DNA from: Bacteroidales bacterium
GTDB taxonomy: Bacteria > Bacteroidota > Bacteroidia > Bacteroidales > M50B96
Direction of reading: 5' to 3'
Length of the DNA: 64,000 bases
Assembly (NCBI GenBank): GCA_018401015.1
Contig: JAGYLP010000003.1
Location: 62,001 to 126,000, forward strand
The notes below the pieces were generated by a model. The model ran no database searches. It worked only from the letters and a program-made list of their open reading frames with translations, and had not been told where the DNA came from. Below are positions 2,648-53,799 of the stretch, in pieces. Numbering within the stretch: the first letter of the stretch is position 1; the number at the start of each line of letters is the position of its first letter. A program made the position numbers and the translations under genes.

Positions 2648-3181
2648 ATGAAACAACTCCTTACCTATCTGGCGTTGATTAGTTTGTTACTGCTGCAGAT
2701 GGCTTGCTCGAACTCAGGTAAGAACCGCAAACCGGTCTTTAGCGACCAGGAAATGAAAAATTTGCAAGAACCTTTGGTTCGGGTAAATCAAAACCTAACG
2801 GAACAGGATGAGATTCGCATGAGAAAATATGCCGAGCGAATGGGCTGGGATATGCTCCAAACAAAATCGGGTTTGCGCTACATGATTTTAGAAGCCGGAC
2901 AAGGTGACTCTATTCAGGATAAAAGCCCGGTAGAACTCAAATACCATATTTCGGTACTCAACCACGGTCCTGTTTACTCAAGCGACAGTTTAGGCAACAA
3001 AAATTTTTACGTGAATCACAGCGATATAGAGGAAGGATTGAACGAAGCGGTGCAATTAATGACCTATGGCACCAAAGCGCGTTTACTTGTTCCGCCTCAC
3101 CTCGGCTTTGGTTTACGTGGCGACGACTGGTTAATCCCAGCCAGAGCTATTTTAATCTACGAAATTGAAATCTTACCATAA
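2648..3181 (+). CDS. FKBP-type peptidyl-prolyl isomerase lipoprotein, GldI-like
   Basis: This 177-aa protein has an N-terminal hydrophobic signal ending at Cys20 (MAC|SNS), so it is probably a lipoprotein. From about residue 75 it has a short FKBP domain (KSGLRYMILEAG, then VELKYHISV, GLNEAVQLM, PPHLGFGLRG, ILIYEIEIL). Length and architecture resemble GldI, the FKBP-like lipoprotein needed for gliding and T9SS function in Flavobacterium. From memory, gldI in that group also sits beside a DHH phosphoesterase gene, which would fit the nrnA neighbour here. The FKBP catalytic aromatic residues are only partly conserved, so chaperone activity without isomerase activity is possible. The alternative is a generic periplasmic FKBP. 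Confidence 0.75.
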   Translation: MKQLLTYLALISLLLLQMACSNSGKNRKPVFSDQEMKNLQEPLVRVNQNLTEQDEIRMRKYAERMGWDMLQTKSGLRYMILEAGQGDSIQDKSPVELKYHISVLNHGPVYSSDSLGNKNFYVNHSDIEEGLNEAVQLMTYGTKARLLVPPHLGFGLRGDDWLIPARAILIYEIEILP

Positions 3182-3191
3182 ACCGATATCT

Positions 3192-4808
3192 ATGAAAAGT
3201 ACCATTCAACTCGTAATTTTCACCCTATTCCTATTCCATCAATCCTTTGCACAGGTTGATAAATCCGACTGGCAAGGATCGTTTCCGGAGGGTTGTACTT
3301 CGATTACCGTAGGGAAAAAAGCTTCTTTCGATGGCTCGGTAATGACCTCGCATACCGACGATTCGCATCGTACCCGTTCATCGATGAACATCGTCCCTGC
3401 ACGCAAACATCCAAAAGGTTCAAAAGTGACCATGTACAAACGAAGCTCAACCGACACGACCATCATGCCAAAATACGTCCATGTGCCCATTGGCGAAATC
3501 CCTCAAGTGCCGGAAACTTATCAATATTTGAATACTGCTTATCCGTCGATGAACGAAAAACAATTGGCTATTGGAGAATCCACCTTTGGCGGAAGACCCG
3601 AATTGCAATCGGACGAAGGTTTGATTGATTGTCAGCGATTATGCCAACTCATGCTGGAACGCACCACTACTGCGCGCGAAGCGATCCAAATGGCCGATCA
3701 GCTAACGGCCGAATACGGCTGGAACGATGCTGGCGAATGCCTTACCATTGCTGATAAAGAAGAAGTTTGGCATTTCGAAATTGTAGGACCCGGCAAAGGA
3801 AAAACCGGAGCCATTTGGGTAGCACAACGAGTTCCCGATAATCATATCTCGGTGAATGCGAATGCAAGTACGATTAAAGAAATCGATTTGAGCAACAGCG
3901 ATTATTTCATGGCCTCCTCCAATGTTTACGATGTGGCAAAAGCCAATGGCTGGTGGAAAGAAGGAGAAGAAACCTTTCGTTGGTGTTATGCTTACGCACC
4001 CGAATCGAGAACCAGTGTAGCCTCTCGTCGCCGCGAATGGCGAATATTCGATCTAGTTGCTCCTGGACTAAAGCTCGACCCTAATGCGGAAAATTATCCC
4101 TTTTCGGTTGAACCGGAACAAAAAATCACCCTGGAAAAAATGGTAGCACTCTTTTCCGATTATTATCAGGGAACACCCTACGACATGCGCCGGAACATTA
4201 CCACCACCGACTCCGAAGGGAAAACGATTATTTCTCCCTTAGCGAATCCATTCATGCCCTACGACCAGTTGGGGTTGCACCCGGTAAGCGGAGGCTGGTA
4301 TCACACTGATTCAAAGGGAAACATCGATTTTCTGGGCGAACGCACCATTGCACGTTGGTACACCATGTACGCCACCATTACCCAATCGCGCAGCTGGATG
4401 CCCGATCATGTGGGCGGAGTGGTCTGGTTAGCTCAGGACAATGTGGCCAGCTCGATTTATATTCCCATCTATTGTTCGGTAGCCTACTTACCTGAATCCT
4501 ATACCATCGACGGACGCGAAACCGGCTTAACCCGAGAATCGGCATGGTGGGCCTTCAACTATATGGGAACGATAGCAGCTCAACGTTGGGGCGATATGAT
4601 TGTGGACGTGCGCGCCGTGTGGGATCCGATGCAAGAGGAATTATTTCAGAATCAGGCCACTATTGAGCAAGAGATCTACCGGATAAAAAGCACCAAAGGT
4701 CAAATCGAAATCCTGACCAAGTACACCAACGATTGGGGGAACAAAGTGGTGAATGAGGCCTGGAAACTAGGCGATTATCTGTTTACCAAATACGACGAAA
4801 AATTTTAG
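3192..4808 (+). CDS. C69-family dipeptidase (PepD-like), exported
   Basis: This 538-aa protein begins with a clear signal peptide (MKSTIQLVIFTLFLFHQSFA, cleaved near AQ). The start is at 3192; the reading frame extends upstream to 3165, but that would overlap gldI and spoil the signal peptide. The mature N-terminal region has EGCTSITVGKKASFDGSVM, the N-terminal-nucleophile Cys motif (Cys35) of peptidase family C69 dipeptidases, followed by the typical TRSSM, GEIPQVPETYQY and ESTFGGRPEL segments. It probably hydrolyses dipeptides in the periplasm. It is 10 bp after gldI and 5 bp before yaaA, so all probably share a transcript. Confidence 0.9.
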   Translation: MKSTIQLVIFTLFLFHQSFAQVDKSDWQGSFPEGCTSITVGKKASFDGSVMTSHTDDSHRTRSSMNIVPARKHPKGSKVTMYKRSSTDTTIMPKYVHVPIGEIPQVPETYQYLNTAYPSMNEKQLAIGESTFGGRPELQSDEGLIDCQRLCQLMLERTTTAREAIQMADQLTAEYGWNDAGECLTIADKEEVWHFEIVGPGKGKTGAIWVAQRVPDNHISVNANASTIKEIDLSNSDYFMASSNVYDVAKANGWWKEGEETFRWCYAYAPESRTSVASRRREWRIFDLVAPGLKLDPNAENYPFSVEPEQKITLEKMVALFSDYYQGTPYDMRRNITTTDSEGKTIISPLANPFMPYDQLGLHPVSGGWYHTDSKGNIDFLGERTIARWYTMYATITQSRSWMPDHVGGVVWLAQDNVASSIYIPIYCSVAYLPESYTIDGRETGLTRESAWWAFNYMGTIAAQRWGDMIVDVRAVWDPMQEELFQNQATIEQEIYRIKSTKGQIEILTKYTNDWGNKVVNEAWKLGDYLFTKYDEKF

Positions 4809-13236: not shown

Positions 13237-13820
13237 ATCAAAACGCTACCAATCCTCAAAACTACTACTCCTACTTAGTGGAGCAATTGAATACCAACTC
13301 GTATGCGCACACACTCAACCATCTAGCCGAATTAATCCAGGACGACCCGGCGGGATTTGCTTTTCTCTGGGAATTAGCACGAGGCGAAAACGAAACGATT
13401 GCCATGCGAGCATCCGCAGTAATGGAACGAATTGCCCGAAAATACCCCGAAACATTCGAATCGCGCCAAGATGAAATCATTCAGGCTTTTCAACGGGAGC
13501 TTTCAGCCGGTCTGGCGCGCAATCTACTCAAAGGATTACGATACATTTCCTACCAAGAAAAAAACAGTGGTTTCCTGTTGAATTATTGTCTCGATATAAT
13601 CCAAAGCAACCAACCGGCACCGGCCATAAAAGTGTATGCAATGGATATTGTTTGGAAAATCATTCAAGATTATCCGGAACTAATCGTCGAGTTTCAAATC
13701 ATTATGGAACAGCAAGTTCATAGTGAAATTCCTTCCATTGCCGCACACACCCGCAACATGATAAAACAAATGAACACCTTTCGGAAAAAACAACTCCAAA
13801 AACCATCGAAGCATGACTGA
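13233..13820 (+). CDS. HEAT/ARM-like helical repeat protein, 195 aa
   Basis: The sequence is made of paired helices of about 35 residues (TLNHLAELIQDDPAGFAFLWELARG; AMRASAVMERIARKYPETFESRQDEIIQAF; KVYAMDIVWKIIQDYPELIVEFQIIM), which is the pattern of HEAT-type repeats. No catalytic motif is seen. It overlaps the SRAP gene by 4 bp and ccoI by 8 bp, so the three are translationally coupled. Its job is not known. A scaffold for either neighbour is conceivable. Confidence 0.7.
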   Translation: MNQNATNPQNYYSYLVEQLNTNSYAHTLNHLAELIQDDPAGFAFLWELARGENETIAMRASAVMERIARKYPETFESRQDEIIQAFQRELSAGLARNLLKGLRYISYQEKNSGFLLNYCLDIIQSNQPAPAIKVYAMDIVWKIIQDYPELIVEFQIIMEQQVHSEIPSIAAHTRNMIKQMNTFRKKQLQKPSKHD

Positions 13821-16236
13821 ATCGGATAAAATTGCCTGCGTCCATTGTGGCGAGGATTGTGGAAAACATCCGATAATGTGGGACGACAAAGCCTTTTGTT
13901 GTAATGGATGCAAAACAGTTTATCAAATCCTGAATCAAAAAGAATTAGGGCAGTATTATAAGATTGAAACCATGCCCGGCATTAAGTTGGAAAGTGAAAT
14001 CCGATCGGAAAAATACAATTACCTCGATTTGCCTGAAATTCGCGAAAAGCTGCTCGAATTTTCCGATGGGACCATTAGTAAAGTAAGCTTTTTTATCCCT
14101 GCCATCCATTGCGCCTCCTGCTTGTGGCTCCTGGAAAACCTGCATTCTCTCCACGAAGGAGTGATCCAATCGCAGGTAAATTTCCCTCAAAAAAGAGTCA
14201 CGCTCCGGTTTAATGAACAACTAATCAGTTTACGGCAACTCGTTGAATTGCTCGCATCTATTCATTATGTTCCGGATATTTCGTTAAAAGATATCGACCG
14301 AAAAAAGCATGGATCGGGAAACCACAAACTCCTTCTGAAATTGGGCATAGCCGGTTTCAGCTTCATGAACACCATGATGTATAGTTTTCCGGAGTACTTA
14401 CCCGGAGGGGAACAATTGGAACAGGAGTTTAAAACCCTCTTTGCTTATCTGAGTTTTATCCTGGCGCTACCAGTGGTATTTTACTGCGCTTCCGACTATT
14501 TCCTTTCTGCCTTTAAAGCGCTGAAGCACAAAATGGTGAATATCGACTTGCCCATTGCGCTCGGAATTATCACCTTATTTTTGCAAAGCAGTTACGAGGT
14601 CTTTTCGGGCAATGGAATTGGGTATCTCGATTCCCTTGCCGGTTTGCTTTTCTTCCTTCTTTTAGGGAAATGGTATCAAAGCAAAACCTATCAGGCATTG
14701 TCCTTCGATCGGGATTACAAATCGTATTTCCCGGTGGCGGTGAATCGGATCGATGAATCGGGGAACGAAAGTAGCCTTGCCCTTTCCGATTTACAAATCG
14801 GCGATCGCATTATCATCCGCAATCAAGAGCTCATTCCGGCCGATGCGATTCTTCTGAAAGGTGATGCCAATATCGATTACAGCTTCGTAAGTGGAGAATC
14901 GTTACCGGTTAGCCGGAATGCAGGCGATTTCATCTATGCCGGTGGAAAGCAGATGGGCAGCAGCATAGAATTACGCATCGAAAAAGAAGTTGAACAAAGC
15001 TACCTCACTCAACTCTGGAATCAGGATCAGAGTAAAAATCAAAATCCTTCGGTCCTCGATAACCTAATCAACAAGATTAGTGAGTACTTCACTTTCATCA
15101 TTTTAAGTATTGCGGCTACCTCGGCCATTTATTGGGCTTTCTATGATTACCCGACCGCCATTTATGCTTTTACCTCGGTGCTCATCATCGCCTGTCCTTG
15201 CGCCTTAGCAATGTCCTTGCCCTTTACCTTCGGAACCAGTTTGCGTCAATTTGGGAAACGGGATTTTTATCTCAAAAACATTCACATTATTGAGAGTTTG
15301 CATAAAGTAAATACCATCGTTTTCGACAAAACCGGAACCTTAACCGCCGGGAACGAAATGGAAGTTGCCTGGGTGGGGAATCCCCTATCTAAGGAAGAAG
15401 AAAGCCTCGTTAAATCAGTGGCTTGGCATTCAACCCACCCCTTGAGTAAAGCCTTAGTTGATTTTCTGGAAATCATTCCGACCGCAGAGTGCGAGCAATT
15501 TAAAGAAATACCCGGTTTAGGATTAAGTGGTCGAGTGGGTGAATCCTTAGTACTTATCGGATCCTCTCGCTTCATTAGTGGAAAAGAATTAAGCGAAGAG
15601 AGTTTACTCACTCGCGTTTACGTTAGCATTGCCGGCAAAATCAAAGGGCATTACACCATTCGGAATCATTATCGCGAAGGCCTTCAGTCTCTGGTAAATG
15701 ACTTGAGAAAGAACTATGAATTACACTTGATAAGTGGCGATAATGAAGCAGAAAAAGAACGGCTCGAGACGATTTTTGGTTCCGGAACCCAGCTCTATTT
15801 CAATCAGAGTCCGGAGGACAAACTCCATTACATTCGATCGTTGAAAGAAGCAGGCAAAGAAGTGCTGATGATTGGCGATGGTTTAAACGATGCAGGTGCA
15901 TTGCATGAAAGTCAGGTAGGTATTACCATAGCCGATAATGTGTATCAATTTTCGCCGGCATGCGAGGGAATTCTGGGAGCCAGACAGTTTAAAAACCTCT
16001 ACTCCTTCCTTCAATTCACCCGAAAAAGTATTGCCGTGTTGAAAATTAGCTTTGTTCTTTCCTTTCTGTATAATGTGATCGGCTTATCCTTTGCCGTTCA
16101 AGGAAGCCTGTCCCCTATCGTGGCAGCCATTATCATGCCGCTCAGCTCAATTAGCGTGGTTGCTTTTGCTACGGTGTCCATCAATTTACTAGCAAGAAAA
16201 TTCCTGCCAAGCGCTCCCTCGGAAGGAAAAAGATAA
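13813..16236 (+). CDS. ccoI: Copper-exporting P1B-type ATPase for cbb3 oxidase assembly (CcoI/FixI)
   Basis: This 807-aa protein moves Cu across the inner membrane for CuB insertion in cbb3 oxidase. From the N-terminus: a Cys-rich Zn-ribbon-like segment (CVHCGEDC at 9-15 and FCCNGC at 28-33) typical of the CcoI class; a metal-binding domain with HCASC (Cys100, Cys103); eight membrane segments; the TGES-type loop (SGES); the CPC metal site at 461-463; the DKTGT phosphorylation site (Asp505); and GDGLND. All catalytic motifs are intact. It is coupled to the HEAT-like gene upstream. Unusually, about 3.2 kb of unrelated sequence separates it from ccoS. Confidence 0.95.
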   Translation: MTESDKIACVHCGEDCGKHPIMWDDKAFCCNGCKTVYQILNQKELGQYYKIETMPGIKLESEIRSEKYNYLDLPEIREKLLEFSDGTISKVSFFIPAIHCASCLWLLENLHSLHEGVIQSQVNFPQKRVTLRFNEQLISLRQLVELLASIHYVPDISLKDIDRKKHGSGNHKLLLKLGIAGFSFMNTMMYSFPEYLPGGEQLEQEFKTLFAYLSFILALPVVFYCASDYFLSAFKALKHKMVNIDLPIALGIITLFLQSSYEVFSGNGIGYLDSLAGLLFFLLLGKWYQSKTYQALSFDRDYKSYFPVAVNRIDESGNESSLALSDLQIGDRIIIRNQELIPADAILLKGDANIDYSFVSGESLPVSRNAGDFIYAGGKQMGSSIELRIEKEVEQSYLTQLWNQDQSKNQNPSVLDNLINKISEYFTFIILSIAATSAIYWAFYDYPTAIYAFTSVLIIACPCALAMSLPFTFGTSLRQFGKRDFYLKNIHIIESLHKVNTIVFDKTGTLTAGNEMEVAWVGNPLSKEEESLVKSVAWHSTHPLSKALVDFLEIIPTAECEQFKEIPGLGLSGRVGESLVLIGSSRFISGKELSEESLLTRVYVSIAGKIKGHYTIRNHYREGLQSLVNDLRKNYELHLISGDNEAEKERLETIFGSGTQLYFNQSPEDKLHYIRSLKEAGKEVLMIGDGLNDAGALHESQVGITIADNVYQFSPACEGILGARQFKNLYSFLQFTRKSIAVLKISFVLSFLYNVIGLSFAVQGSLSPIVAAIIMPLSSISVVAFATVSINLLARKFLPSAPSEGKR

Positions 16237-16437: not shown

Positions 16438-17190
16438 ATGAAACGTAAGGAAACCTTCTTTTCCATCCTGATGCTCGGCCTGATTTTTTCAGCCATTTCT
16501 TTTCAATCTTGCCAAGATAGCGATCAAGTAGCTCCGGTCATCGTTCTCGAGGGACCCGAAACATTGCTGCTTAAGCTTAACGAACGCTACACCGAATTTG
16601 GCATCTCGGTTTACGACAATCGGGACGTAAACGAAGACCTAACCATCGAGATCATCAACAACATCGATACGCTTGAAGAAGATTATTTCAATGCCTACGG
16701 CGAACTTATTTACATGGGTGTTGGAGCAACCATCGAAGTGGGTGAATTCACGGTTGAATATATTGTTACCGATAAATCTGGTAATGAAGCCACAGCAACT
16801 CGTCTGGTTATTGTAGAAAACGAAATGTCGAAGTTTAACCGACTCTTCGATGTTACCAAACTCAATCTCACGAATCCGAACGTTACCTATGCCGACTATC
16901 AGCTCGAAATCGAAGTAGATGAGAATGTTAACAATCGTATTTGGTTCCCACGTTTTTCCAACCTGCAATTTTTCAACATTCGCGTGTATGCCGACATTGT
17001 CGATAACGATGTAATCATTCCAACGCAAGTATTTCCCGACCAAAATAATTATGTAGTCGAAGGCTCCGAATCGGCCGATGGGCTGGCTGGCACCATTAGT
17101 CGCTCCGATTATCGCATCGAAATAAAGTACCTCGCAGCGAATAACACCGACGGTACGCAGTACTTTCAAGAGAATTTTGTTAAGTTCTAA
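16438..17190 (+). CDS. Lipoprotein with DUF5011-type Ig-like domain
   Basis: This 250-aa protein has a signal peptide ending in the lipobox FQSC (Cys25). Residues about 32-125 form a bacterial Ig-like DUF5011/HYR domain (APVIVLEGPETLLLKLNERY ... VEYIVTDKSGNEATATRLVIV). The remaining C-terminal half (LFDVTKLNLTNPNVTYADYQ and onwards) is beta-rich and unrecognised. It is probably a surface or periplasmic lipoprotein. It has its own terminator and sits, with the next gene, between ccoI and ccoS. Confidence 0.8.
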   Translation: MKRKETFFSILMLGLIFSAISFQSCQDSDQVAPVIVLEGPETLLLKLNERYTEFGISVYDNRDVNEDLTIEIINNIDTLEEDYFNAYGELIYMGVGATIEVGEFTVEYIVTDKSGNEATATRLVIVENEMSKFNRLFDVTKLNLTNPNVTYADYQLEIEVDENVNNRIWFPRFSNLQFFNIRVYADIVDNDVIIPTQVFPDQNNYVVEGSESADGLAGTISRSDYRIEIKYLAANNTDGTQYFQENFVKF

Positions 17191-17203
17191 TCCACGATTT
17201 TTT

Positions 17204-17234
17204 AAAGAGGCTCTTTCCATGAGCCTCTTTTTTG
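17204..17234 (+). terminator. Rho-independent terminator
   Basis: A 10-bp perfect stem (17204-17213 with 17221-17230, 7-nt loop) is followed by a T run. It lies 13 bp after the DUF5011 lipoprotein. Confidence 0.85.
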
Positions 17235-17255
17235 TACAACCAATATCATTTCTAA

Positions 17256-19109
17256 ATGACCAAAAAACTTACTTTCCTGCTCTGGAGTGTGATGCTCCTC
17301 CTGGGAAGTGCTCAGGCTCAAACTGTGCTCTTCTCCGAAAATTTCGACACCCTTACGGCCGGCTCCGGAATTGTTGCCCAGTCGGGATTCCCGTGGGGAA
17401 CCTGGAGTGGTGCAATTGGCTCCGAAGACGGTTTAGTGAGCAGCACTTTCGCATCAAGTGGAACCCAATCCTTACACATTCAAGGCGGAAAAGATATCGT
17501 GCTCATGTTCAGCAACCTGACTACCGGTCGCTATAAACTGGAATTCGATCTGTACGTAACAGCCAATAACCTGGCCTATTTCAATCTTCTGAGCGATTTC
17601 AATGGTTTAAACTCCGAATGGGCAACCCAATCCTATTTCCTACCCGACCAAACCGGCGTAATCGATGGCGACGGAGGTGCAGCAGCCTCGTTCAATTACC
17701 TGGCCGATAGCTGGGTGCCTATTTATTATATCATCGACTTAGACGACGATTTTGCCAGCTTCTTCGTGAATAACACCGAAGTATGGAGCTGGAAATACAG
17801 CCGAAGCACCTTCGGAACCGAAGGATTATTAGCTTTAGACGCTCTCAATTTTTATGGATGGTCGGAAGGAACTTATGTTTCCGATTTCTACATCGATAAC
17901 ATCGCCTTCAGCGAAATGACAGCTCCCGAAGCGACGGCGAACTTTTCGGCAAATTTCATTAGTCCTGACCTTGAACTTAGCTGGGATGCCCCAACCGGAA
18001 GCACTCCCGACTCTTACCTTCTAACCCGAAACGAGCGATGGTATTTGAATAACATCCTCAATACACAGTTCATCGAAAACAATCCTTACCCAAACACCTA
18101 TTCTTTTCAGGTACGTGCCCACTATCCGGGCGAAGGATATTCACACGCCTCTGCAGCAGCTTCGGTGACTGTTCCAGGTGGAATTGAGCGCGATTTAGTG
18201 TTGATGGAAATTCACACCGGAACCTGGTGTGTGTATTGTCCGGGAGCAGCTATGGGAGCCGACGAAGTAAAAGAGAATAATCTCGACATGGCCATTATTA
18301 AATACCACAACGGCGATGAATATGTCAACACCGATGCAAGTATCCGCGAAACTTATTACAACGTGGGAGCTTTCCCAACCAGTCGGGTAGATGGAGTGCA
18401 TTTGTACGAAGGCGGAAGCAGCACCGAGTCCTTATATCCTGCCTACGAAGAATTTTACCTCGGACGAATTGATTATCCTGCGGTAGTAAGCATGGATATA
18501 ATTGCGAGCCATGTAGAAGGAAGCTTATTTACGGTTGAGATTACCCTTCAGGAAGAAAACCCATGGTTTGGAGGCGATTTAATTCTTCACACAGCCCTTA
18601 CCGAATCCCACATTCCCGAAAACTGGTTCAACCAAACCGAAGTCAATTCCGTTTGCCGTAAAATGTATCCCGACGGAAATGGTAGCACGATTACTTGGGA
18701 TAACGATCAATCCTTTACTTACAGCTTTACAGTGGATACCGAGGGTTATCAGCTCGAACACTGCGAACTGGTAGCATTCGTTCAGCACGATGGAAGTAAC
18801 GAGATTCTTCAAACGAATAAAATCATCCTATCGTCACTCGTATCCATTAAAGATCAAAACGAAACGTATCTCTCCGTGTATCCAAATCCGGCGGATACGA
18901 AACTGATTATCGATATTCAGAGTCCGCTGGCCGATGATTACCAAATTGAAATCATCGATTTACAAGGAAAATCTGTTCTCAAAAGCAGCGCTCCTGCCGC
19001 AAACTTAGTATCGAAACACCTCGACATTAGCAGCTTGCACGGTGGCCTCTATTTTATAAAAATCGCACAAGGAACTCAGGTAACCATGAAAAAGTTTCAG
19101 GTATTGTAA
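17256..19109 (+). CDS. Secreted protein: lectin-like N-terminus, Omp28-type thioredoxin-like domain, T9SS sorting domain
   Basis: This 617-aa protein has a signal peptide (MTKKLTFLLWSVMLLLGSAQA). Residues about 25-215 look like a jelly-roll/lectin-like domain (LFSENFDTL ... VSDFYIDNIAFSEM). A fibronectin-like linker (SPDLELSWDAPTGS) follows. The Omp28-related domain starts near residue 310 and contains GTWCVYCPG with a CxxC pair (Cys325, Cys328). The C-terminal 75 residues (LSVYPNPADTKLIIDI ... GGLYFIKIAQG ... MKKFQVL) are a T9SS type A sorting signal, so the protein is exported through T9SS to the surface or medium. The CxxC may be redox active, but this is unproven. Confidence 0.88.
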   Translation: MTKKLTFLLWSVMLLLGSAQAQTVLFSENFDTLTAGSGIVAQSGFPWGTWSGAIGSEDGLVSSTFASSGTQSLHIQGGKDIVLMFSNLTTGRYKLEFDLYVTANNLAYFNLLSDFNGLNSEWATQSYFLPDQTGVIDGDGGAAASFNYLADSWVPIYYIIDLDDDFASFFVNNTEVWSWKYSRSTFGTEGLLALDALNFYGWSEGTYVSDFYIDNIAFSEMTAPEATANFSANFISPDLELSWDAPTGSTPDSYLLTRNERWYLNNILNTQFIENNPYPNTYSFQVRAHYPGEGYSHASAAASVTVPGGIERDLVLMEIHTGTWCVYCPGAAMGADEVKENNLDMAIIKYHNGDEYVNTDASIRETYYNVGAFPTSRVDGVHLYEGGSSTESLYPAYEEFYLGRIDYPAVVSMDIIASHVEGSLFTVEITLQEENPWFGGDLILHTALTESHIPENWFNQTEVNSVCRKMYPDGNGSTITWDNDQSFTYSFTVDTEGYQLEHCELVAFVQHDGSNEILQTNKIILSSLVSIKDQNETYLSVYPNPADTKLIIDIQSPLADDYQIEIIDLQGKSVLKSSAPAANLVSKHLDISSLHGGLYFIKIAQGTQVTMKKFQVL

Positions 19110-19444
19110 ACTGAATCTCCCCAGCGTTTAAAGGCAGAAAAGTATGCAGTTACTTTTCTGCCTTTTTTTTTGCAAACCATCGCCAGCAGGTGAATCGATT
19201 TTGCCCCCACTGTTTTCCGACCTACGGATGTTACCTAAACTCCTTAATGCGTCGCTAACCGCCCTCACCCCACATTCCTAAAAGGGTAGCAAACAGACAA
19301 TTAAGCCATTTGTTTATCTAAATTGATTCTAAATTAAAATAAGCTTTATCGAGCTTAAAAAAGCGGACAAAACAATATCTTGCAGAGATTTTTGTAAAAA
19401 TAGAAACCTATTTCTGCAATCAACTACCTAATTATGTTGAGTCC
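19110..19444 (+). other. Intergenic region upstream of the ccoS-ccoP genes
   Basis: These 335 bp hold the terminator at 19130-19170 and presumably the promoter of the oxidase genes. I see no TAnnTTTG -7 box; TATCTTG at 19375-19381 is the nearest. An imperfect inverted repeat, TTGCAGA (19380-19386) with TCTGCAA (19413-19419), lies 26-65 bp before ccoS and could be an operator. No FNR-like TTGAT-N4-ATCAA box was seen. Confidence 0.4.
19130..19170 (+). terminator. Strong Rho-independent terminator
   Basis: A perfect 15-bp stem (19130-19144 with 19151-19165, 6-nt loop) is followed by a T run. It ends the transcript of the T9SS/Omp28-like gene and insulates it from the oxidase genes. Confidence 0.92.
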
Positions 19445-19678
19445 ATGTCGATCATTCTTTTATTGATTATTGTGAGCATTGTGGTGGCTGGCGGATTTCT
19501 ATTTGCTTTTATATGGGCAGTTAGAAATGGGCAGTACGACGACGATTACTCACCATCGATGCGAATTTTATTCGACGACCTAAAAAAAGGCACTGATAAA
19601 GCTGCTGGCGAACAAGAAAACACTGAATCAGAAACAGAAACAACAACTAAAACAAAGAATACGGACAAACTTCATTAA
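19445..19678 (+). CDS. ccoS: cbb3 oxidase assembly protein CcoS
   Basis: This 77-aa protein has one membrane segment (LLLIIVSIVVAGGFLFAFIWAV) followed by RNGQYDDDYSPSMRILFDD, the conserved CcoS/FixS motif (GQYDD..P..RIL.DD). CcoS is needed for cofactor insertion into cbb3 oxidase. The C-terminal 25 residues are a Glu/Thr-rich low-complexity tail. It is 14 bp before ccoNO and is the first gene of the oxidase transcript. Confidence 0.94.
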   Translation: MSIILLLIIVSIVVAGGFLFAFIWAVRNGQYDDDYSPSMRILFDDLKKGTDKAAGEQENTESETETTTKTKNTDKLH

Positions 19679-19692
19679 CTAAACTAAGTACT

Positions 19693-21816
19693 ATGGGATT
19701 AGAAAAATTTACTTATGACAATCGACTAGCGAAGCATTTTGCTACAGCGACCATACTATGGGGCGTGGTGGGCATGCTCGTTGGGTTACTGGCAGCATTG
19801 CAGTTATTTCTGCCGGAGTTAAACTTTAACTTTTCCATGACCTCTTTTGGTCGGTTACGGCCACTACACACCAATGCAGTGGTTTTTGCTTTTGTGGGCA
19901 ACGGTATTTTCACGGCCATTTATTATTCGGTTCCCCGACTGTTAAAAACTCCCATGTACAGTCCATTGCTGGGGAAACTACATTTTTGGGGCTGGCAAAC
20001 CATCATTCTCTTGGCTGCCGTTACCTTGCTCTTAGGAATTACCAGCAGTAAAGAATATGCCGAATTAGAATGGCCAATCGATATTCTGATAACCATTGTT
20101 TGGGTAATTTTCGGATGGAACCTCATCGGAACTCTTATTAAGCGTCGGACTTCGCATATTTATGTGGCCATTTGGTTTTATATAGCCACCTTGGTTACCG
20201 TAGCCGTTCTACACATTATCAACTCGTTAGCTATTCCGGTTAGTTTAACCAAAGCCTATCCGATTTATGCCGGGGTGCAGGATGCCTTTGTGCAGTGGTG
20301 GTATGGACACAATGCAGTTGCTTTCTTCCTAACTACTTCCTATTTAGGGTTGATGTATTATTTTGTCCCTAAAGCCGCCAACCGACCGGTATATTCCTAC
20401 AAACTGTCGATTATTCACTTCTGGTCGCTCATTTTCCTTTATATCTGGGCTGGGCCACACCATTTACTTTATTCGTCAACCCCCGATTGGGCTCAGGCCT
20501 TGGGTGTTGTATTCTCGGTTATGCTTATTGCACCCTCGTGGGGTGGTATGATCAATGGTTTATTGACCATGCGTGGAGCCTGGGATCGTGTTCGCCAGGA
20601 TCCGGTTTTAAAAATGTTTGTAGTCGGAATTACCGCTTATGGTATGTCCACTTTCGAAGGACCAATGCTTTCGCTTAAAAGTGTTAATGCCATTTCGCAC
20701 TACACCGACTGGACCATCGCACACGTTCACATTGGAGCCATGGGATGGAACGGAATGTTAACCTTTGGTATGTTGTATTGGTTGTTCCCTCGTTTATTCA
20801 ACACCAAACTCTTCTCTACCCCACTCGCTAATGCCCATTTTTGGTTATCGACCCTGGGAATATTATTCTATGCTATCCCGCTTTATTTCGCAGGCTTTAC
20901 ACAAAGTTTGATGTGGAAAGAATTCACGGCCGATGGATTCCTCGCTTACCCGAACTTCCTCGATACCGTAACCCAAATTTTACCCATGTACTATATCCGC
21001 GCTTTCGGAGGAACCATGTACTTTGTAGGGGTTATCTTAATGGTTTACAACCTCGTTAAAACAGCTAAGTCGGGTAAATTTGTCGCTACCGAAGAAGACG
21101 AAGCTCCGGCGAGAGAGGTACACCACAAGAAAGAAGGATTCCATCGTCGAATCGAAGGGAAGCCAATCACCTTTACGATTTTGTCGCTTATAGCTATCCT
21201 GATTGGAACCCTCATCGAATTTGTTCCTCTTTTTGTAGTCAAATCGAACATCCCAACCATTTCCAGTGTAAAACCTTACACTCCTCTTGAGCTAGAAGGT
21301 CGTGATATTTACGTTCGCGAAGGATGCTATACCTGTCACTCGCAAATGATACGTCCTTTCCGTTCGGAAACAGAGCGTTATGGCGAATACACCAAAGCCG
21401 GTGAACACGTGTACGATTATCCATTCCAATGGGGCTCGAAACGAACCGGTCCGGATTTAGCCCGCGAAGGAGTTAAAACCACCCGCAATTATAAGCCCGA
21501 CGCATGGCATTACAACCACATGCTCGATCCGCAAAAGATGAACGAACAATCCATCATGCCTCCTTATCCATGGCTAATCCACGACGATTTGGATATTTCG
21601 CTCACCGCCAAAAAAATCATCGCAATGCAAAAGCTGGGGGTTCCTTATCCCGAAGGATATGCCGACCAAGCCGTGGCGGATTTGCAAAAGCAAGCTCATG
21701 AAATTGCCGAAGGCCTGAGAGCTTCGGGTATCCAAGTAGAAGATACGAAAGAGATTATTGCCATGATTGCCTATCTGCAACGACTTGGCACCGATATTTA
21801 CACGGAAAAAGAATAA
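19693..21816 (+). CDS. ccoNO: Fused cbb3 cytochrome c oxidase subunits I and II (CcoN-CcoO)
   Basis: This 707-aa protein joins two subunits. Residues about 1-465 are the heme-copper subunit CcoN with twelve membrane segments and His ligands in PLHTNAVVFAF, WWYGHNAVAFFLT, AGPHHLLY and TIAHVHIGAMGWN. After a charged linker (EEDEAPAREVHHKKEG) comes one more membrane segment, then the CcoO part with one c-type heme site, CYTCH (545-549), followed by QMIRPFRSETERYGEYTKAGE, the CcoO signature. It reduces O2 with high affinity and conserves the energy as a proton gradient. The fusion is common in Bacteroidota. No frameshift is present. Confidence 0.96.
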   Translation: MGLEKFTYDNRLAKHFATATILWGVVGMLVGLLAALQLFLPELNFNFSMTSFGRLRPLHTNAVVFAFVGNGIFTAIYYSVPRLLKTPMYSPLLGKLHFWGWQTIILLAAVTLLLGITSSKEYAELEWPIDILITIVWVIFGWNLIGTLIKRRTSHIYVAIWFYIATLVTVAVLHIINSLAIPVSLTKAYPIYAGVQDAFVQWWYGHNAVAFFLTTSYLGLMYYFVPKAANRPVYSYKLSIIHFWSLIFLYIWAGPHHLLYSSTPDWAQALGVVFSVMLIAPSWGGMINGLLTMRGAWDRVRQDPVLKMFVVGITAYGMSTFEGPMLSLKSVNAISHYTDWTIAHVHIGAMGWNGMLTFGMLYWLFPRLFNTKLFSTPLANAHFWLSTLGILFYAIPLYFAGFTQSLMWKEFTADGFLAYPNFLDTVTQILPMYYIRAFGGTMYFVGVILMVYNLVKTAKSGKFVATEEDEAPAREVHHKKEGFHRRIEGKPITFTILSLIAILIGTLIEFVPLFVVKSNIPTISSVKPYTPLELEGRDIYVREGCYTCHSQMIRPFRSETERYGEYTKAGEHVYDYPFQWGSKRTGPDLAREGVKTTRNYKPDAWHYNHMLDPQKMNEQSIMPPYPWLIHDDLDISLTAKKIIAMQKLGVPYPEGYADQAVADLQKQAHEIAEGLRASGIQVEDTKEIIAMIAYLQRLGTDIYTEKE

Positions 21817-22049: not shown

Positions 22050-22655
22050 ATGACAGAAGAAAAAAATATCTATAAAAACAATGAACCCGATTACGAGCTG
22101 GATACCCTCACCAATGAAAAACTAATCAAAGACCATGTGTACGACGGAATTCGGGAGCTCGACAACGACCTGCCCCCCTGGTGGAAATGGTTATTCTACA
22201 TCACCATTATTATTTCCGTTATCTATCTGAATCGACTCTTCATTTTTGAAGCCGACGACTTGGTTCAGTTAAAAGAATACGAAAATGAAATGGCCAAGGC
22301 TGCTGCCAATGCACCCGTCGAAGAAGCATTTGAACTGGTTTTACTGGAAGATTCCAAATCGCTCGAAGCCGGTAAAGAAATCTGGGATAAAAACTGCTCA
22401 GCATGTCATCTGGTTTCAGGAGCCGGTATTGTAGGCCCCAATATTACCGACGATTACTGGATTCATGGAAACACCCTCGAAGAAATGTTTCACATTGTAG
22501 AGGTTGGTGTTATTGAAAAAGGAATGATCGCCTACAAAGATCAATTTACTGCCAAACAGCGCCTGGAAGTAATCAGTTACATGATTTCGCTTCATGGTAC
22601 GAATCCGGCAAATCCCAAAGCACCCGAAGGAGAAGAACTTCCCTGGCCTTACTAA
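22050..22655 (+). CDS. ccoP: cbb3 oxidase subunit III (CcoP), monoheme
   Basis: This 201-aa protein has the CcoP N-terminal domain (ELDNDLPPWWKWLFYITIIISVIYL) with one membrane segment and a single cytochrome c domain with CSACH (116-120) and the axial Met in KGMIAYKDQ. Proteobacterial CcoP has two heme c domains and about 300 residues; only one CxxCH is found here. The C-terminus is short (PKAPEGEELPWPY). It delivers electrons to the CcoO part. A terminator hairpin follows at once, so distal genes may be expressed at lower level or from their own promoter. Confidence 0.94.
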   Translation: MTEEKNIYKNNEPDYELDTLTNEKLIKDHVYDGIRELDNDLPPWWKWLFYITIIISVIYLNRLFIFEADDLVQLKEYENEMAKAAANAPVEEAFELVLLEDSKSLEAGKEIWDKNCSACHLVSGAGIVGPNITDDYWIHGNTLEEMFHIVEVGVIEKGMIAYKDQFTAKQRLEVISYMISLHGTNPANPKAPEGEELPWPY

Positions 22656-22672: not shown

Positions 22673-22710
22673 ACCGGGAGATTTCTTTAACTGAATCTCC
22701 CGGTCTTTTT
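22673..22710 (+). terminator. Terminator or attenuator between ccoP and ccoG
   Basis: A perfect 11-bp stem (22673-22683 with 22694-22704, 10-nt loop) is followed by a T run ending 12 bp before the ccoG start codon. It separates the structural genes ccoSNOQP from the assembly genes ccoG-ccoH. Confidence 0.88.
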
Positions 22711-22721
22711 TATTCCTAACT

Positions 22722-24185
22722 ATGGCACCATCAACTAGCACTACTAAAGAAAAAGATAAACCCGGATTCCGCGATCGCATTAGCACCGTCGATTCCGAAG
22801 GCAAACGCGTGTGGGTATATCCGAAAAAGCCGAAAGGCAAATTGACGACCTATCGCCATGCAGTGGCCATCTTCATTTACTCCTTGTTCTTCTTACTCCT
22901 AATTTTAAAGTAAATGGCGAACCACTTTTCTTACTGAATATTTTCTGAGCGCAAATCTATCTTGTTCGGAGTAATCTTCTGGCCTAAGATTTGTATTTGT
23001 TTGTCCTCAGCCTCATAATATCTATCATCGTTTTTATCGTTTTGTTTACTGTTATTTACGGACGACTTTCTGCGGCCGGGCTTGCCCACAGACCGTTTTC
23101 GCGGAATTTATTTATCGCCGAATTGAGCATTTAATCGAAGGAGATGCCCCTGCTCAAAAGCGACTCAACAAACAAGCCTTCAGAACGGCCTCCAAAATCT
23201 TTAAAAAGACACTCAAACACTTTCTTTCATCCTGGTTTCTCTGGCCATTGGAACAACGGCTTCCAATATATTGTGGTGGTGCAGAGCGAATGCTCGACAT
23301 TTACCAATCCGGATTCGCCTACGACACCAAGCTACTGGTAGCCAGTATCTTGATTTGAAGTGGATTATTCATTTTGCATTTGCCTTCTTCGCGAACAACA
23401 GGTGTGTATTATCGTTTGCTCCCTATGGTCGATTAGCAAGGAGTGCTGCCTTCCGACAAGCAATCCATTGTTGTGGCTTACGATTATTTACGTGGAGAAC
23501 TGGCGGGGGCCGCTAAATCTGGCGAAGACTGAAAATTAAGCTGAAAAGGGAGAACTGTGTCGATTGGTCAGTGCCCAGGTGCAAGCTTGTCCGGACTAAC
23601 ATCGATATCCGCAATGGAACCCAGCTCGAATGCATCAATTGTACTGCTTGTATCGACGCTTGCGACACCGTGATGGAAAACATCAACTACCAAAAGGACT
23701 TATTCGTTACGACTCTGAGAGTGGAAATCTTAGCTCGGGTATTCGTAAGATTATGAACTCCCAGAAACCATTGCTTATAATGCTGTTCTAGGAATACTCA
23801 TGGTTATTGTTAGCTCCATGTTCCTATTTCGCGCTGAAGCTTGGAAACGGGACGATTTTACGTCAGTCGCGGAACCTTGTATCAGGAATATGGAGAATCA
23901 GCTTACAGTAATGTGTACGAAATTGATGTAGTGAACCGATTCAACGAAGATATTCAACTGAATTTAAAGCTGGAGGAACCTGCAGGTGAGATCCAGCTAA
24001 TTGCAACCGACTTACTCATTCCGGGAGGCGAAAGGCTAAAAGGACGTTTCTTCGTCATTATCGATAAAGCAAACTTAACGCAATCGAAGAATCGTATCAA
24101 AGTCGGCATTTATAATCAGGATAAGTTGATTCGCAAATATCCGGTAACCTTTGTTGGTCCGAATAAACTTGATGAAAAGAATTAA
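22722..24185 (+). pseudogene. ccoG: ccoG (rdxA/fixG) with multiple frameshifts
   Basis: CcoG is a membrane ferredoxin-type cupric reductase for cbb3 assembly. The N-terminus (DRISTVDSEGKRVWVYPKKPKGK, 22722-22905) and the C-terminal Ig-like domain (23871-24185, ending TFVGPNKLDEKN) each read in one frame. Between them the reading frame changes at least 14 times. The expected peptides survive in pieces: ERKSILFGVIFWP (22947), LFTVIYGRL (to 23068), ACPQTVFAEFIYRRIEHL (23080 on), GAERMLDIYQSGFAYDTKLL (23278), DKQSIVVAYDYLRGE (to 23500), NGTQLECINCTACIDAC (23610 on) and AVLGILMVIVSSMFLFRAE (to 23838). Stops occur, for example TGA at 23356. The first Cys cluster is scrambled. This is either a pseudogene or a local consensus error. 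Confidence 0.88.
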
Positions 24186-24272
24186 GCGTTTTGGCGAATA
24201 GGATTAATCGTTTGTCCTATCCTTGAATACAATTGATAATCGTCGTAAGAGACAATATAACAAAAAAAGTAG

Positions 24273-24722
24273 ATGAACATTAAATGGAATTGGGGAACAG
24301 GTCTGGTGGTAGGTATCGTTCTTTTCATGAGTTTTATTCTCATCATGGTTTACAATATGGTTCAAGTCGATTTCGATTTAGTAGAAGACGACTACTACCC
24401 ACAAGCCATTGTTTATCAAAACAAGATTGAAAAACGACAGGCGGCAGAAGCCCTTTCCAAACCCGTTCTTATCCAGCAAACTAAGGATTCAGTTCGCGTT
24501 GCGTTTCAAGATTTTTTCAATCCGATGGAGCTCAAAGCGAACATCTGGTTTTATCGTCCTTCGTTGGAAGACAAAGACATCCAACTAACCGTGGAGCCCT
24601 CGAACAGCCGGATTGTTCGATTACCCAAAAGCAATTTCATTCCCGGGCACTACACCGTTAAAATTGATTACCAACACCTTGGGGTCAGTTATTATCAGGA
24701 AACAAAAGTGTATATCAAATGA
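24273..24722 (+). CDS. ccoH: FixH/CcoH-family cbb3 assembly protein
   Basis: This 149-aa protein has one N-terminal membrane segment (GLVVGIVLFMSFILIMVYNMV) followed by QVDFDLVEDDYYPQAIVYQNKIEK, the FixH hallmark (DLV...YY...), and a periplasmic beta-domain ending in GHYTVKIDYQHLGVSYYQE. CcoH associates with CcoNOP and is needed for stable assembly. It overlaps the TauE-like gene by 4 bp (ATGA), so the two are coupled. The gap to ccoG is 87 bp. Confidence 0.92.
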   Translation: MNIKWNWGTGLVVGIVLFMSFILIMVYNMVQVDFDLVEDDYYPQAIVYQNKIEKRQAAEALSKPVLIQQTKDSVRVAFQDFFNPMELKANIWFYRPSLEDKDIQLTVEPSNSRIVRLPKSNFIPGHYTVKIDYQHLGVSYYQETKVYIK

Positions 24723-39005: not shown

Positions 39006-39290
39006 ATGTTTAAAGTTAGTATTCTGGTACGCAGTAACCAAGCGGCTGGTTTTGCCGATTTTGCCTCCTCAGTAGCAAACAGACTGCTATTGCATGGTTA
39101 TGTATCCAAAAGTAAAAGAGAAGGCGTTTACATTGTAGAAGCTGAAGGTCGATCCAACCAAATAAACGACTTGATTGAAGCATGTAACGAAAACGACTAT
39201 GGTTGGTCGGTGATTCAGTACAATTTGCAAAGCATTGAACGCATTGCCTACCCCGCTTTCACGGTACACAATTATGAAAAAGCATCTTAA
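39006..39290 (+). CDS. Acylphosphatase-fold-like protein A, catalytic residues lost
   Basis: This 94-aa protein aligns by eye to acylphosphatase: KVSILVRSNQAAGFADFASSVANRLLLHGYVSKSKREGVYIVEAEG matches the layout of 'v.G.VQGVGFR.f....A..LgL.GwV.N..dG.VeveaeG' (segments at residues 3-22 and 23-48). The catalytic Arg of GFR is Ala (AAGFA) and the catalytic Asn is replaced near KSK. It therefore probably lacks acylphosphatase activity. It may bind ligand or partner. It overlaps the next gene by 17 bp. Confidence 0.6.
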   Translation: MFKVSILVRSNQAAGFADFASSVANRLLLHGYVSKSKREGVYIVEAEGRSNQINDLIEACNENDYGWSVIQYNLQSIERIAYPAFTVHNYEKAS

Positions 39291-39549
39291 GCTTACGCTG
39301 CATGGAGATGTAAGACACACCGGAGTTCGATTTTCGATTATGCAAAAAGCATATCAGTTAGCCATTACCGGTAATGCAACCTATTCCGATAATGGTAAAA
39401 AACTGATTATCCATGCAGAGGGAAACGACCTCCCGCTTAAAACCTTTATCGAATATTGCAGTCGAGGACTTTTCGAGCTGAACATTGAAAAACAGGATGT
39501 CGAAGAACTCCCCCCGGAGAACTTCCCTTCTTTCGATCTAATAGGCTGA
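39274..39549 (+). CDS. Acylphosphatase-fold-like protein B
   Basis: This 91-aa protein starts at 39274 (MKKHLKLTLHGDV). It follows the same fold plan: HGDVRHTGVRFSIMQKAYQL, then AITGNATYSD, LIIHAEGNDLPLKTFIEYC. The Arg of the phosphate-binding loop (GVRF) is retained, but the catalytic Asn position is Tyr (NATY). It overlaps protein A in another frame, so the pair is translationally coupled. The C-terminal tail is acidic (VEELPPENFPSFD). Activity is doubtful. Confidence 0.62.
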   Translation: MKKHLKLTLHGDVRHTGVRFSIMQKAYQLAITGNATYSDNGKKLIIHAEGNDLPLKTFIEYCSRGLFELNIEKQDVEELPPENFPSFDLIG

Positions 39550-53289: not shown

Positions 53290-53799
53290 CTGGCTGTTGG
53301 CTGTTGGCTGTTGGCTGGTTCGTGGTTTAACTAATTGCTACGAAGATTTGTGGGCTACGCCCCCATGACGCGTTGTTCAATGTCCACTGACTCGCTCCGA
53401 TTTTGGCTGTTGGCGGTTGGCGGTTGGCTTTTGGCTGGTTCGTGGTTGCTGCTTTCGCCTCTTCGCCATTTCGCCATTTCGCCTAGTCGCCAAGTCGCTC
53501 GTGCTCGTGCTGTTGTTGCTTTTGGTTCGAAAAAGCTCGCGGAGGTTTAAAAAGGATGCGAAGGTTCGCGCAAAGGGCGCAGAGGAGGCGCGAAGTCCGC
53601 AAAGTTTTTTGAGTTGAATTGGAATGCTTGCCACGCGCCAGGAGTCGCGCGGCAGTTCGTTGTTGCCACGCGCCGGGTGTCGCGCGGCAGTTCGTTGTAG
53701 CTGGCTGTTGGCTTTTGGCTTTTGGGAGGCTGATAGCTCTTGCTCTTGCAGTTTTTCGCCCCGTCGCCAAGTAGCCTAGTCGCTCGTGCTGTCATTGCT
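53290..53799. repeat. Gene-free block of tandem and direct repeats
   Basis: About 510 bp without a credible gene. It contains a heptamer array (TGGCTGT repeated, 53291-53318, partly again at 53403-53427 and 53701-53725); a 17-bp repeat TTGGCTGGTTCGTGGTT at about 53312 and 53431; two adjacent 35-bp units (53629-53663, 53664-53698, two mismatches) of the form TGCCACGCGCC...GCAGTTCGTTGT; degenerate CGCC-rich words (TCGCCATT, TCGCCAAGT, CCTAGTCGC) at 53463-53501 and 53757-53788; and a G/A-rich stretch GCGCAAAGGGCGCAGAGG. Composition is more GC-rich than the flanks. Long overlapping reading frames here arise from lack of stops. Confidence 0.8.

Follow-up and report, generated by a model that had tools for sequence, protein, structure and literature searches.

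Does the ccoG gene of this Bacteroidales genome, whose reading frame is interrupted many times in the assembled sequence, represent a gene that is decaying in the organism, or a gene that was damaged only in the deposited sequence? The window analysed is a 64-kb stretch of DNA (positions 62001-126000 of contig C23), taken from a genome of 2,876,689 bases in 84 contigs that is 99.05% complete and 0.14% contaminated. In the window, ccoG lies in a cbb3 oxidase locus, downstream of ccoP (22050-22655) and upstream of ccoH (24273-24722).

To determine the extent of the disruption, a frame-allowing protein-to-DNA alignment of window positions 22700-24200 was made, with the 468-residue intact CcoG of a same-genus relative (G001, 60% complete) as the reference. 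The alignment contained 284 identities over 463 residues (61%) and 18 frame switches, located at 22896, 22946, 22986, 23066, 23218, 23259, 23353, 23391, 23420, 23436, 23551, 23565, 23594, 23676, 23765, 23839, 23850, and 23867. Once frame changes were allowed, CcoG residues were recognisable in order over the full length. Alignment with two other members of the family revealed 19 switches each, at nearly identical sites. An earlier, sequence-only reading had counted at least 14 switches, most of them at positions recovered here, and had described both ends of the gene as clean, which they are. The 5' part (22722-22895, plus strand) reads in one frame, with no switch relative to intact CcoG, from the start codon to approximately residue 58; it is 52% identical to G001, and its level of change is not above that of G001 itself. 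The 3' part (23871-24185, plus strand) is a single open frame containing the last ca. 105 residues and the stop codon (TIGR02745, E=1.8e-4; 55% identity to G001). At least 18 switches fall in the patch between them (22896-23870, plus strand), where the identity to G001 between switches reaches 65%; the core of CcoG is more conserved, and identity here therefore exceeds that of the clean ends. A hexamer-based detector of frame-hopping, which made no use of homologs, returned the ccoG gap as the top match on the contig (scores 59-81, depending on settings), while the sequence between switches had genome-like hexamer usage. We conclude that the disruption of ccoG is real as an observation and far from chance.

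When the genome was searched with the CcoG/RdxA/FixG family profile (TIGR02745), the only matches were two pieces at ccoG, with stops inside, scoring 84.5 and 59.3 bits versus a cut-off of 316.7; no second CcoG was found with this profile, and Pfam Fer4_5 gave no match. The gene resembles the family in having ccoP upstream, ccoH downstream, and family residues in order along its full length, but differs from it in lacking a single open frame. The cysteine motif CINCTACIDAC is readable near 23630-23665, and the other ferredoxin-like motif falls among the switches at 23551-23594. Of 99 relatives, 14 have a single open frame that matches TIGR02745 in full; they include all three relatives from the same genus or family (G001 and both other family members), whose ccoG is intact.

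The genes around ccoG are intact, as had been stated in the sequence-only reading. These are, all on the plus strand, the fused cbb3 oxidase subunit I/II gene ccoNO (19693-21816; NF011053, 1230 bits, with TIGR00780 and TIGR00781; 84% identity to G001), the cytochrome c subunit gene ccoP (TIGR00782, E=5e-21, which is below the curated cut-off; 65% identity), the FixH-family gene ccoH (Pfam PF05751, E=3e-18; 45% identity), and a gene for a ccoI-like copper P-type ATPase (13813-16236; TIGR01525/TIGR01511; 66% identity). The ccoQ gene and the gene following ccoH are likewise intact. A ccoS gene of the FixS family is located at 19442-19639 on the same strand (Pfam PF03597, E=9e-22). Between ccoI and ccoS (16438-19109), there is a 250-codon gene without a family match and a 617-codon gene whose product contains a T9SS sorting domain and an Omp28-like part; in G001 (L032), just ca. 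340 bp separate ccoI from ccoNO.

The length of the patch and the placement of lesions within it were compared with those in intact genes. The ccoG patch spans 978 nt versus 918-954 nt in 13 intact homologs, and is therefore 24-60 nt longer, a net insertion; in a DNA alignment with G001, small gaps are scattered along it in both directions. The 18 switches span 971 of the 1464 bp of the gene (P = 0.006 under uniform placement), and the edges of the patch, at 22896 and 23867, are abrupt, lie inside the gene, and are unrelated to gene boundaries. The mean longest homopolymer run at the switches was 2.5, compared with 2.53, so there is no enrichment, and an error of the homopolymer type was rejected on these values. 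The base composition of the region is ordinary. No inverted repeats were found in the ccoG region, direct repeats there are short and at chance level only, and no repeats that could explain a failure were found at the patch edges.

The sequence-only reading had also proposed that point lesions are few and that indels exceed substitutions, and both proposals require qualification. A Trp-to-Arg change in the first cysteine motif is indeed present, at 23077. The TGA at 23356-23358 is present as well, but its origin from a Trp codon is doubtful, since it lies beside a switch and the corresponding residue of G001 is not Trp. Family residues are kept between switches, as claimed, but substitutions are not absent: ca. 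12% of patch residues are altered beyond the G001 level, part of this being mis-framing around the switches. Measured against 12 outgroups, the clean ends of the gene resemble them about as much as those of G001 do, but the middle is less similar to them (averaged value ca. 0.485, versus 0.549 for G001). At columns that are invariant in the 12 outgroups, 11 of 71 residues within the patch were changed versus 0 of 71 in G001; at least 15 nt away from any switch, 2 of 35 such columns were changed in the patch. Hidden compensating indels may lie behind some of the invariant-column changes. In mutation accumulation lines of Teredinibacter turnerae, 779 substitutions and 106 indels were recorded, with deletions 2.2 times as frequent as insertions (PMC5833318). 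Under neutral decay, 18 indels should be accompanied by ca. 130 substitutions and alter 29% of the residues, a level above that observed. On ccoG alone, however, a substitution-to-indel ratio of ca. 7:1 is rejected mildly (P = 0.013), and ratios of up to ca. 3:1 fit, so that the argument is weaker than had been claimed. By itself, the ratio is suggestive and does not decide between error and decay.

To monitor frame-hopping elsewhere in the assembly, a survey with a hexamer coding model was carried out over 1.44 Mb (50%) of the genome, sampled in stretches; a codon-only coding model, the first attempt, was too weak. Three further abrupt patches were confirmed against intact relatives, in yidC, in an ornithine aminotransferase gene, and in a metallo-hydrolase-fold gene, and, as in ccoG, their edges lie inside the genes and bear no relation to gene boundaries. 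In yidC (contig C2, L048, 16103-17910), 497 residues are clean, followed by four to six switches in 17594-17906 near the 3' end; this patch also has a stretch where a conserved motif looks mis-framed. This yidC is the sole copy in the genome, and the gene is intact in the seven relatives with a match (G001 gave no match). E. coli is not viable without YidC (PMC13261788). A CTP synthase-like gene adjoining yidC is intact. In the ornithine aminotransferase gene (contig C15, L053, 14934-16125, minus strand), residues 1-278 are clean, 246 of the 278 being identical to G001, and six to seven switches between 15285 and 14934 are confined to the last ca. 350 bp; the gene is intact in six of six sampled relatives. 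In the metallo-hydrolase-fold gene (contig C5), four to five switches fall between 3615 and 3837, i.e., in the first ca. 220 bp, and the ca. 220 remaining residues are clean. For the ornithine aminotransferase gene and yidC, the placement of switches gave P = 0.009 each, values that are illustrative, since the genes were chosen by detector flags.

Several other detector hits were rejected as patches. Those on C12 and C84 appear intergenic, C15:1-2000 and C5:1200-2400 appear to be mobile-element remnants, C7:3923 lies within a repeated-domain gene, and C8:41714 corresponds to a tandem repeat upstream of tRNA-Leu. On C5 (L051, ca. 2660-4498), frame-hopping runs through a small gene and a TPR-like gene into the 5' end of the metallo-hydrolase gene, after which the sequence is clean; integrase-like remnants near this patch may be true pseudogenes. 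On C8 (L144, ca. 1800-2360), a tandem repeat with a unit of ca. 69 nt lies directly upstream of a tRNA-Leu (cag) gene.

The interpretation of ccoG rests mainly on the patches in unrelated genes. Since such genes, including the very probably indispensable yidC, carry patches like that of ccoG, we conclude with high confidence that the shredded middle of ccoG is a local sequence error in the assembly rather than a biological feature, as the sequence-only reading had suspected. Given the sharp edges, the net insertion, the intact relatives, and the patches elsewhere, CcoG itself is probably intact in the organism. The patch would then consist of ca. 975 bases of error-prone consensus, with scattered small indels and some wrong bases, flanked by good sequence on either side, and several such patches would have struck genes of this draft genome irrespective of their function. 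We infer that these short consensus stretches rest on poor evidence, for example one or few error-prone or uncorrected reads bridging a gap. The cell would have an ordinary intact ccoG inside a complete cbb3 oxidase maturation locus. In raw PacBio reads, error rates are ca. 8% for insertions, 3% for deletions, and 1-2% for substitutions; in raw nanopore reads, each type is at ca. 4% (PMC7671305). The net insertion in ccoG would fit PacBio somewhat better, and the mixed pattern of the other patches nanopore; no platform is assigned. It is known from long-read assemblies that indel errors can make an intact gene look like a pseudogene (Kastor, PMC12007338). The patches described here resemble such draft-assembly errors in that frame shifts occur in genes of any function that are intact in relatives, but differ in being short and dense and in lacking homopolymer enrichment.

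A real pseudogene, in which a non-functional ccoG is decaying and the cbb3 oxidase receives reduced copper by another route, is an improbable alternative. CcoG is a cupric reductase that aids copper delivery to the oxidase, and its loss in Campylobacter jejuni is tolerated, with oxidase activity lowered by ca. 50%, halved but not abolished (PMC8267372). The loss of ccoG being tolerable, the implausibility of such a loss does not alone exclude a pseudogene; the genome has no other CcoG, and the excess of invariant-column changes within the patch is expected from decay too. Decay, however, should reach the whole gene, yet both ends of ccoG are clean, and the net insertion runs against the usual deletion bias of bacteria. 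Salmonella pseudogenes are similar to ccoG in being recognisable genes with frame shifts and stop codons, but a single inactivating mutation was found in 346 of 378 of them (PMC2916853), compared with which 18 or more lesions are extreme; in addition, the lesions of ccoG occupy only part of the gene, result in a net insertion, and follow a pattern common to an essential gene. It is this pattern, seen in the sole yidC and also in the ornithine aminotransferase gene, that makes the pseudogene interpretation unlikely. There is similarly little chance that the shifts are real, the CcoG of this cbb3 oxidase locus was recently lost, and some other cytoplasmic copper reductase has assumed its role.

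A local mutation burst, or recombination with a decayed copy, would also produce real sequence of this kind, and sharp edges within the gene would suit a conversion tract, with genome-like hexamer usage between switches being compatible with such an origin. The probability of such an event is very low. The genome contains no second copy or donor, the region lacks inverted repeats and has no direct repeats above chance level, and the event would have had to recur independently in yidC, where it should be lethal. Programmed frameshifting or another form of recoding could in principle account for the preservation of family residues between switches. We consider it extremely unlikely that ccoG is read through in this way: at least 18 switches in both directions would be involved, no common sequence context was seen among them, relatives encode the protein in one frame, and the flanking genes have no need of recoding.

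Probable sequence error in ccoG and the three other genes has a bearing on how the assembly should be used. That an assembly 99% complete and 0.14% contaminated nevertheless has several short patches that falsely break genes, the essential yidC among them, is a warning. Claims of gene loss based on this genome should be avoided for ccoG, rocD, and yidC, which automatic annotation is expected to label as pseudogenes or to overlook.

The contigs are apparently arranged in lexicographic order of their original size rank, so the position of C23, whose size is out of order, does not indicate a hand-joined scaffold. In the window, an apparent broken gene at 39006-39549 proved to be two tandem acylphosphatase genes, which are adjacent, overlap slightly in different frames, and both score above the Pfam cut-off. 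A GC-rich (0.56) intergenic stretch of short repeats was also observed at 53290-53799, with a TGGCTGT array and a 35-nt unit present twice; across the two strands of the sampled 1.44 Mb there are 29 copies of the core, CCACGCGCC.
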